From Actinospica robiniae DSM 44927 (lineage in GTDB: Bacteria > Actinomycetota > Actinomycetes > Streptomycetales > Catenulisporaceae), in NCBI RefSeq assembly GCF_000504285.1, contig NZ_KI632511.1, forward strand, positions 7,732,154 through 7,796,153: a stretch of 64,000 nt of DNA, given 5' to 3'. Below, piece by piece: positions 21,732-25,545 of this stretch (positions within the stretch are counted from its first letter, which is position 1; every line of letters begins with the position of its first letter). Made by a program: the position numbers and the translations under genes. The notes under the pieces are model-generated. The model searched no databases and was not told the DNA's origin. It saw only the letters and a program-made list of their open reading frames with translations.

Positions 21732-22229
21732 GTGACGACGATCGGCTTCACCCCGGAGGAGACCGCCGCCTGGTACGCCTCGGTCCCCAAGCTCGCCCTG
21801 TCCGCCAACGCGGTGCTGCGCGACCCGGAGGGCCGGGTGGCGATGGTGCGCAACACCTACCGTGAGGGCTGGTCGCTGCCGGGCGGCGTCGTCGACGACA
21901 ACGAGGCCCCCGCCGACGCCTGCGTGCGCGAGGTGCGCGAGGAGCTCGGCCACGACGTGGACGGCCCCGTGCGGCTGCTCGCGGTGCAGTGGGCCGAGCG
22001 CGGCGAGGGACCGGTGCAGTTCCTCAGCCTGACCTTCGACGCCGGGGTGTGCCCGGACCCGGCCGCGCTGCGGCCGCAGGAGGAGGAGATCGCCGAGATC
22101 GCCTTCTTCGCCGTGGACGAGCTGCCGCCGGGGCTGCGGCCGTTCATGCGCGCACGGATGGACGCGATCGTCGAGGGCGGCTTCCACGACGTCGCCTATC
22201 TGGAGTCACACCTGCCGCGGCACCCGTGA
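21732..22229 (+). CDS. Nudix hydrolase
   Basis: 165 residues from GTG at 21732. The Nudix box is complete: GGVVDDNEAPADACVREV followed by REELGHD gives GX5EX7REVXEELG. The box comes at about residue 52, after an NTP-pyrophosphohydrolase-like strand pair (LSANAVLRDPEGRVAMVRN). The substrate cannot be told. It is divergent from the PLP decarboxylase and its 3' end overlaps the convergent sirtuin gene by 24 bases. Confidence 0.88.
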   Translation: MTTIGFTPEETAAWYASVPKLALSANAVLRDPEGRVAMVRNTYREGWSLPGGVVDDNEAPADACVREVREELGHDVDGPVRLLAVQWAERGEGPVQFLSLTFDAGVCPDPAALRPQEEEIAEIAFFAVDELPPGLRPFMRARMDAIVEGGFHDVAYLESHLPRHP

Positions 22230-22991
22230 GAGCTCGGCCACCAGCGCCGGCAGGGCCTCGGAGATCGGCTCCCGGACCAGCTCGGTGGCCAGATCGTCGT
22301 AAGGGGTCGGCTCGTTGTTGACGATCACGAGGTCGGCCCCGGCCGCCACCGCGATCTCGCACAGCCCGGCCGCCGGATGCACCCGCAGCGAGGTGCCCAC
22401 GGCCAGGAACACCGCCGCGGCCCGGGCGAACTGCCCGGCCCGCCCGTTCACGTCCTCGTCCAGGAACTCGCCGAACATGACGGTGGCCGGCTTGAGGATC
22501 CCGCCGCAGCGCTCGCACTTCGGGTCCGGCTCACCCGCGTCCACCCGCGCGGCGATCTCGTCCAGCGTGCCGGTCCAGCCGCACTTCGCGTGCGTGCACA
22601 GCACCTCGAAGATGTTGCCGTGCAGCTCGAGCACCTTGCGCGGGGACGAGCCCGCCTTCACGTGCAGCCGGTCCACGTTCTGGGTCAGGATCCGCACCGA
22701 GCGGTGGCGCTCGAGCTCGGCGAGCGCGAGGTGGCCCGGGTTCGGCTCGGCCGTGCGCGCAGGATTGTTCCGGCGGGCGTTCCAGGAGCGTTCGCGCAGC
22801 TGCGGATCGCGCATCTAGTCCACGATGTTCGCGGTGAGCTCCGCGATCGGGTTCTGCGTCCACAGGCCCTGCGGGCTGCGGAAGTCCGGGATCCCGGAGT
22901 CGGTGGAGATACCGGCGCCGGTGAGCACGGCGATCGGGCCGGGGCGGTCGCGCCAGGAGGGGCCCTCGAGCCCCGCGGCGGAGTTCGTCAT
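22206..22991 (-). pseudogene. Sirtuin (NAD-dependent deacetylase), broken by in-frame amber codon
   Basis: From ATG at 22991 the frame encodes the NAD-binding start of a sirtuin ([21 protein letters not shown]), reads 58 codons, meets TAG at 22817-22815, and then continues in the same frame from an immediate ATG for 202 more residues. The rest is intact: TQNVDRLH, LHGNIFE, zinc cysteines in CTHAKC and CERCGG, VMFGEFL, and VGTSLRVHPA. By memory of the family, the stop falls where a Tyr is common, so TAC to TAG is the simplest event. Restart at the ATG would give a fragment lacking the GAGIS loop, hence no deacetylase. Alternatives are a sequencing error or amber readthrough. Confidence 0.82.
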
Positions 22992-23144: not shown

Positions 23145-23801
23145 TCAGCGGTCCTCCACCGAGATCCGCAGCGCCCGGGCGAAGTCCACCGCCAGCTCCA
23201 CCGCCTGGGAGCTGTCGATGACCGCGCCCTTGAGGTTCTCGAACCCGTCGACGCACTCGAGCACGGTGGCGTCCCGGAAGTCGGCCCTGGCCAGCCTGGC
23301 CTTGGCGAACTTGCCGTCGCGCACCGCCGAACCGGGAAACGACACCTCCCGCAGCGAGGCGCCGCTGAAGTCCACGTCCCGCAGGATGCAGTCCTCGAAG
23401 ACCACCTCGTGCAGCTCGGCGCCGCGCAGGTTCACCGCGTCCAGCTTGCAGCGCTGGAACACCACCCGGCGCAGCTGCGCGCCGAAGGCCTCGATCCCGG
23501 CGAACGAGCAGGAGAGCACGCTCGCGTCCAGCCACTCGCTCTCGGCCAGGTCGCCGCTGAGCACCCGCCCGCCGCGCCACCAGACGTCGGTGAACCGGGC
23601 CCGGCGCATCCGTACGCCCTCGAACACGACGTTCTCGAAGGCGCACTCGGTGAACCGGCTGCTGCCGGCGTCCGCGTCCGCCTGGTGCAGCGCGTCGAAG
23701 TGGCACAGGTCGTGGTCCCCGTCGCGCAGCAACGGGCCCCGGTGCGGATCGAGCGCGTGCGCGAACGGGAGCTCGTCGATCTCCCGGGCGATCTTCGTCA
23801 T
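23145..23801 (-). CDS. Pentapeptide-repeat protein
   Basis: 218 residues from ATG at 23801; the frame is open further upstream but only shadows the DJ-1 gene. From about residue 45 to 185 the chain follows the A(D/N)LXX-type pattern with F/L every fifth residue (for example FENVVFEGVRMRRARFTDV, LRGAELHEVVFEDC, LRDVDFSGASLREVSF). These repeats fold into a right-handed square beta-helix. Some members protect DNA gyrase from inhibitors, but most have no known role. It lies on the same strand as the DJ-1 gene 59 bases upstream. Confidence 0.88.
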   Translation of the reverse strand: MTKIAREIDELPFAHALDPHRGPLLRDGDHDLCHFDALHQADADAGSSRFTECAFENVVFEGVRMRRARFTDVWWRGGRVLSGDLAESEWLDASVLSCSFAGIEAFGAQLRRVVFQRCKLDAVNLRGAELHEVVFEDCILRDVDFSGASLREVSFPGSAVRDGKFAKARLARADFRDATVLECVDGFENLKGAVIDSSQAVELAVDFARALRISVEDR

Positions 23802-23860: not shown

Positions 23861-24496
23861 TCACCCGGTCTTCCTGGACCGGGCCATTCCGGAGAGCTCG
23901 ACGATGCGCGGGCCGGCCTTGGCCGGCGATCCGGCGTCGAACGGCGGCTGCGGGTCGTACTCGATGCCCAGCTGGATCGCCTTGGCCATGTCCTCGCCCA
24001 GGATCTCGGCGACCAGGGTCAGGGCCAGGTCGATGCCGGCCGAGACGCCCGCGCCGGTGACGATCCTGCCCTGGCGCACGACCCGTTCGCTCGTGTACGT
24101 GGCGCCGGTCCGCTCGAGCAGCTCGGTCGCGGCCCAGTGCGTGGTCGCCTTGAGACCGCGCAGCAGTCCGGCCGCGCCGAGCACCAGCGAGCCGGTGCAC
24201 ACGGACGTGGTCCACTGCGTGGTCGCGTGCACCCGGCGGATCCAGTCGAGCAGCACCTCGTCCGTCATCCCGGCGCGCGTGCCCCAGCCGCCGGGCACGA
24301 GCAATATGTCGGCCGCCTCGATCTCGTCGAAGGACGCGTCGGCCTGCAGGCCCAGCATCCGGCTGTCGGTGCGCACGACGCCCTTCGCGGCCGCCGCGAA
24401 GACGACCTTGGCGTCGGGCATCGAGCGCAGCACCTCGTACGGCCCGATCGCGTCGAGGGCGGTGAAGTCGTTGAAGATCGGAATCACGATGTCCAT
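23861..24496 (-). CDS. DJ-1/PfpI family protein (isonitrile hydratase-like)
   Basis: 211 residues. The fold starts MDIVIPIFNDFTALDAIGPYEVL, and the nucleophile elbow is SVCTGSLVLGAAGLL with Cys near residue 99, followed by KATTHW. This is the DJ-1/PfpI layout shared by isonitrile hydratases and the N-terminal domain of GlxA-type regulators. The next gene upstream carries the same domain fused to an AraC DNA-binding domain, so the two probably act in the same pathway. No helix-turn-helix is present here. The enzyme's substrate is unknown. Confidence 0.85.
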   Translation of the reverse strand: MDIVIPIFNDFTALDAIGPYEVLRSMPDAKVVFAAAAKGVVRTDSRMLGLQADASFDEIEAADILLVPGGWGTRAGMTDEVLLDWIRRVHATTQWTTSVCTGSLVLGAAGLLRGLKATTHWAATELLERTGATYTSERVVRQGRIVTGAGVSAGIDLALTLVAEILGEDMAKAIQLGIEYDPQPPFDAGSPAKAGPRIVELSGMARSRKTG

Positions 24497-24549: not shown

Positions 24550-25545
24550 TTACGCCATGGCGCTCCCGCCGCCCGGCGCCGTGAACCCGGCTCCGGTGGC
24601 CGCGAACCGCCCCCGGTACTCGTGCGGAGCCACCCCGAGCAGCCGCTGGAACGAGCGCTGCAGCGTGCGCAGCGTGCCGAATCCGCACACGCGCGCGATC
24701 CGCTCCACCCCGTCGTCGGTGGTCTCCAGCAGCCGGCACGCCGCCTCCACCCGGGCCGCCTCCACGTACCCGGCCGGGCTGTGCCCCGTCTCGCCGTGGA
24801 AGACCCGCAGGAACTGACGCTCGCTCAGCCCGACCCGGTCGGCCAGCGCCGGCACGGACAGGTCCGCGCCGGGATGCTCCGCGATGAACCCCAGCAGGTC
24901 CCGGATCGGCTCCCGCGTCGGCCGCTGCGCCCGCAGCTGCACCGAGAACTGACGCTGGCCGCCCGGCCGCTGCACGAACACGACGAGCTGGCGCGCGATC
25001 TCACGTGCCGCGGCCGCGCCGTGATCCTCCTCGACCAACGCCAGAGCGAGATCGATGCCGGCGGTCACGCCCGCCGAAGTGGACACCGCGCCGTCCCGGA
25101 TGAAGATCGGATCCGCGTCCACGCTCACCTTCGGATACCGCGCGGCGAGTTCCTCGGCCCGGCTCCAGTGCGTGGTCGCCTTCCGCCCGTCGAGCAGCCC
25201 GGATTCGGCCAGCAGAAGCGCGCCGTTGCACACGGATGCCGTCCGGCGGCACGATCTCGACGCCCGCGCGATCCACTCGGGGTATTCGGGCCGCCTGATC
25301 GCCACGTCCAGACCCCGGCCGCCGACCACGATCAGCGTGTCCGCGCCCGCGAACGGCGTCGCCGCCTCGGCCACCACCGCAAGGCCGCTGCTGGAGATCA
25401 CCTGACCCGGGTCCAGGGCCAGGGTCCGCAGCGTGTAGCGCCCCGGCGAGTACCGGTCGGCCTGCGAGAAGACCTCCAGCGGGCCGGTCAGATCAAGCAT
25501 CTGGAAGTCCGGGAAGATCAGGAAGGCGATCTCACGGGCCGTCAT
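24550..25545 (-). CDS. GlxA-type AraC regulator with DJ-1/PfpI domain
   Basis: 331 residues from ATG at 25545, which overlaps the ADP-ribosylglycohydrolase stop by 4 bases (ATGA). Residues 1-180 form a DJ-1/PfpI domain with SVCNGALLLAESGLL and KATTHW. Residues about 215-315 form a double helix-turn-helix AraC domain: LSVPALADRVGLSERQFLRVF and VERIARVCGFGTLRTLQRSF. Such proteins sense a small molecule through the DJ-1 domain and switch nearby genes. The neighbouring stand-alone DJ-1 gene is a natural target. Confidence 0.9.
   Translation of the reverse strand: MTAREIAFLIFPDFQMLDLTGPLEVFSQADRYSPGRYTLRTLALDPGQVISSSGLAVVAEAATPFAGADTLIVVGGRGLDVAIRRPEYPEWIARASRSCRRTASVCNGALLLAESGLLDGRKATTHWSRAEELAARYPKVSVDADPIFIRDGAVSTSAGVTAGIDLALALVEEDHGAAAAREIARQLVVFVQRPGGQRQFSVQLRAQRPTREPIRDLLGFIAEHPGADLSVPALADRVGLSERQFLRVFHGETGHSPAGYVEAARVEAACRLLETTDDGVERIARVCGFGTLRTLQRSFQRLLGVAPHEYRGRFAATGAGFTAPGGGSAMA

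Follow-up and report, generated by a model that had tools for sequence, protein, structure and literature searches.

Strains of Streptomyces venezuelae with one or both cobB genes deleted have been described (PMC11229371), which indicates that sirtuin loss is survivable there. The window, by which we mean the whole stretch of 64,000 nucleotides from Actinospica robiniae DSM 44927 analysed here, carries a sirtuin gene divided by one in-frame stop, and we regard it as probable that this is a recent nonsense allele, with the stop at codon 59, of a dispensable and vertically inherited sirtuin in the strain or species. The parts of the gene are as follows:

22206..22991, minus strand: sirtuin (SIR2 family) gene with one in-frame stop (PF02146, E 9.7e-42 when the stop is read as X)
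22818..22991, minus strand: the first 58 codons, which hold GAGIS and DFR (PF02146, E 1.5e-7)
22815..22817, minus strand: premature TAG (codon 59), a position that is Tyr in 38/39 orthologues examined (translation, orthologue alignment)
22206..22814, minus strand: downstream 202-codon frame from ATG, with TQNVD, LHG and the four Cys kept (PF02146, E 7.5e-30)

The frame comprises 261 codons before its final stop, running from M through NIVD, stop, MRDPQ to QV, stop; 58 codons precede the TAG, and the ATG of the 202-codon frame follows at once at 22814. Besides the TAG, the translation of 22206-22991 revealed no indel or further stop, and a genome-wide sirtuin search gave a match to this gene that likewise contains one TAG. 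Each piece alone matches the Pfam SIR2 profile, and the frame joined by X at the stop covers profile positions 1-180 of 180; matching both separately and as one whole, the two frames are one gene and not a product of chance. GAGIS, DFR (as DFRSP), TQNVD, LHG (as LHGN) and four zinc-site cysteines, which we take to be the sirtuin motif set, are all present. As a family member the gene has a full-length SIR2 domain and these motifs, and lacks a single uninterrupted frame, being broken by the TAG at codon 59. The closest solved chain by sequence is that of a Sir2 family protein (1ma3_A, E 1.4e-40). The initial annotation had described two intact sirtuin halves in the same frame, with only TAG between them and ATG next, and both the translation and the PF02146 matches bear this out.

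Codon 59 was compared in 39 orthologous loci, one from each of 39 other genomes in the order, these being the loci examined among 48 other genomes with matches at E 1e-25 or better. The set leaves out the window gene itself (L001, L003), the second sirtuin (L002, with Phe at the site), L033, which is the same gene as L032, and repeats of the same genes (L173-L181). Tyr is found in 38 loci (36 TAC, 2 TAT), Cys in one and a stop in none; the single Cys belongs to G051, where the gene is frameshifted. In further, mostly more distant loci (the best 80 of 560 confirmed matches, among which L044 and L045 apparently duplicate L013 and L015) the site holds Phe in 57, Tyr in nine, Ala in seven, Arg in one and Asn in one, with a gap in five and a stop in none. 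Judged by these aligned sequences, Tyr is the rule for close orthologues and Phe in the wider family. A split shared by homologues, which the initial annotation had named as evidence against its reading when it proposed an alignment with relatives, did not appear in that alignment: an in-frame UAG is kept in 0/39 orthologues and in none of the best 80 of 560 loci. The claim that the stop falls on a Tyr position holds for close orthologues (38/39 Tyr). The accompanying claim of a TAC to TAG change is right as to the Tyr position and need not be right as to TAC as its source, since the codon there is TAT in both congeners (G001 and G002), with no stop in the aligned gene; the G001 copy has its N terminus cut off by the contig end.

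The codon after the site is most commonly ATG (25/39 orthologues) and is CTG in both congeners, so that TAT CTG in the congeners stands against TAG ATG in the window and two neighbouring bases differ. We considered a single tandem event or a tiny inversion behind these adjacent changes, and dropped both because adjacent pairs occur at about the expected number: across the 506 sirtuin sites where the congeners agree, the window differs at 48, with six adjacent pairs, against roughly 3 to 5 expected at that rate by our own arithmetic, which makes the pair of bases at TAG/ATG unremarkable. Stops inside other orthologues, seen in 16 best matches among those listed, were likewise set aside as natural gene ends. 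All 16 stop-containing alignments extend at least to query residue 197, which takes them over the natural end. Three were checked: in G045 the stop comes at residue 258, counted on the full protein, and G055 and G050 have none (alignments to 255 and 254, respectively); the other 13 apparent stops are presumably natural ends too. At a separate locus (L038, G024:C14:77500-79600) a TAG stands opposite residue 12 of the window protein, ahead of the conserved domain, and this codon probably precedes the true start.

The surroundings of the gene are conserved in the congeners. In G002, ten genes including the sirtuin lie in common order (9/9 tested neighbours found), from a protease that we take to be HtpX-like to the gene after the ADP-ribosylglycohydrolase; in G001, 5/10 genes including the sirtuin (4/9 neighbours) were found, as far as its contig end. 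The near neighbours in the window are:

21732..22229, plus strand: NUDIX hydrolase, convergent, its 3' end overlapping that of the sirtuin by 24 bases
23145..23801, minus strand: pentapeptide-repeat protein
23861..24496, minus strand: DJ-1/PfpI family protein
24550..25545, minus strand: regulator with a DJ-1/PfpI domain and an AraC-type helix-turn-helix
25542..26564, minus strand: ADP-ribosylglycohydrolase, not adjacent to the sirtuin

L178 and L180 likewise have a NUDIX match (35-36% identical) close to their sirtuin. The loss had been placed next to an ADP-ribosylglycohydrolase gene; this gene is 2.55 kb off, with three genes between, and no functional link between it and the sirtuin follows from the neighbourhood.

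The rates of change in the sirtuin look normal. Nei-Gojobori estimates against G001 gave dN 0.137 and dS 0.614 (dN/dS about 0.22), inside the range of about 0.18 to 0.47 for four comparable neighbouring genes against the same congener; against G002 they were dN 0.174 and dS 0.402, a ratio that again falls between those of neighbouring genes. Private residues in 224 sites number 18 in the window's genome (stop counted) vs 19 in G001. As in a nonsense pseudogene, the close orthologues are stop-free; relaxed selection and further decay were not seen, which is compatible with a young stop. Normal rates together with the lack of any other lesion mean that the stop is young, or that the gene still works or the stop is harmless, or that the base is wrong.

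The window sirtuin is dispensable within the order. Sirtuin matches at E 1e-25 occur in 151/197 genomes, the window's included, and none were found in 46/197. In G051 (L036, G051:C1:6735300-6737400) the orthologous sirtuin is frameshifted and the site codes for Cys, not Tyr, which looks like a separate loss unless the assembly is in error. In another genome a full sirtuin match has a partial one beside it (G155:C1:288303-288770, 1-157) with an internal TAA, which may be a broken paralogue. The genome of the window encodes another sirtuin, at position 9108913, whose frame of 298 aa is intact; it is 31% identical, scores above the NF003738 cut-off and has Phe at the position of the window gene's stop. 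The absences in the order, this intact second sirtuin and the deletion strains make a loss believable and unremarkable.

We therefore favour ordinary gene loss as the most likely explanation, with nothing to suggest that the stop codon is read in a special way. On this view, a nonsense change at codon 59 has recently knocked out the sirtuin in the strain or species; translation from the normal start should yield only 58 residues, so that most of the NAD-binding fold, and with it the catalytic His, is not made. The window gene would then be a young pseudogene or null allele, with a distinct second sirtuin intact elsewhere. The TAG is present in the assembly, and the stop-free orthologues share the surrounding gene order; we infer a genuine base and a dead product.

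The main rival, which we consider unlikely and less likely than recent gene loss, is that the assembly holds a wrong base or a minority allele at the TAG, and the cell has an intact sirtuin. The undecayed remainder of the gene would fit this, as would the nine other genes compared with G002, all open, with the TAG as the sole lesion seen there. Against it, the genome is assembled into a single contig of 9.9 Mb, and long reads, where they are used, lead mostly to indels, not to substitutions; the codon after the stop also differs from both congeners. Nor does the assembly look rich in false stops: of its 72 matches to short-chain dehydrogenases, a few of them partial, none contains a stop, a rate that cannot test one base.

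It is very unlikely that a near-cognate tRNA or a condition-dependent mechanism reads the UAG usefully, so that some full-length sirtuin is made. The two intact halves and the apparently normal constraint are what one would see under such read-through; the tRNA set, the PylS search and the use of TAG in this genome tell against it. The Rfam tRNA model followed by ARAGORN on all 53 tRNAs found in the genome gave no CUA anticodon (0/53), leaving the suppressor read-through raised in the initial annotation unsupported; a loose CTA anticodon-arm pattern matched five times, vs 22 in a reversed control, and ARAGORN placed no tRNA at any of the five. For pyrrolysine insertion, the genome has no match to PylS (TIGR02367); in the control, matches occurred in 13/14 named genomes and passed the cut-off in only one, so that weak matches mean little. 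TAG ends two of the nine genes inspected (sirtuin included), and the orthologues of these two end within about six codons of the TAG point in both congeners; two nearby genes thus use UAG as a plain terminator. With no CUA anticodon among the tRNAs found, no PylS match and TAG at usual gene ends, UAG seems to act here as a normal stop codon. Further, no examined relative has UAG at that site.

That ribosomes restart at the ATG after the TAG and make a 202-residue protein with its own function is highly improbable. Bacterial ribosomes are known to reinitiate near a stop, the ATG follows the TAG immediately, and with CTG in both congeners it may have arisen on the window's lineage; against this, ATG is the commonest codon at the position in the 39 orthologues, and so need not have been made for restart. 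The fragment would be without GAGIS and DFR and, as the NAD-binding fold would lack its first part, no sirtuin activity is expected of it. Over the 20 bases that precede the ATG at 22814, pairing with an assumed 16S end sequence reaches -3.0, weaker than the region median of -4.1; this argues against restart with low power, since the normal start at 22991 itself pairs weakly (-1.5). The papers listed by a literature search on restart were, judged by title, not on point. Given the weak upstream pairing and the usual codon at the position, the earlier suggestion of a meaningful restart found no support. Least credible of all is a sirtuin functional behind its UAG through a near-cognate tRNA at a controlled level, with the deacylase dose set by termination efficiency.

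Under recent gene loss, the strain is probably without one of its two sirtuins, and would offer a natural knock-out for studies of actinomycete lysine deacylation. For the family, the locus is one more sign that a sirtuin of the window type can be lost, and it carries little weight beyond annotation.

Set beside bacterial nonsense pseudogenes, the window gene is alike in its one stop, its otherwise intact sequence and its uninterrupted orthologues, and as known from the assembly alone it shows no difference from them. It resembles Sir2/CobB sirtuins in its full profile match, its catalytic and zinc motifs and a gene order common with a congener. The nearest NCBIfam model is NF001753 (PRK00481.1-3), against which it scores 230 bits, below the cut-off of 243; unlike bacterial Sir2/CobB sirtuins, it is broken by one TAG. 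The genome resembles the two-sirtuin set of Streptomyces (CobB1 and CobB2; PMC11229371) in having two sirtuin genes, and differs in that one of the two is broken; the likeness to the CobB1/CobB2 pair is one of gene number.
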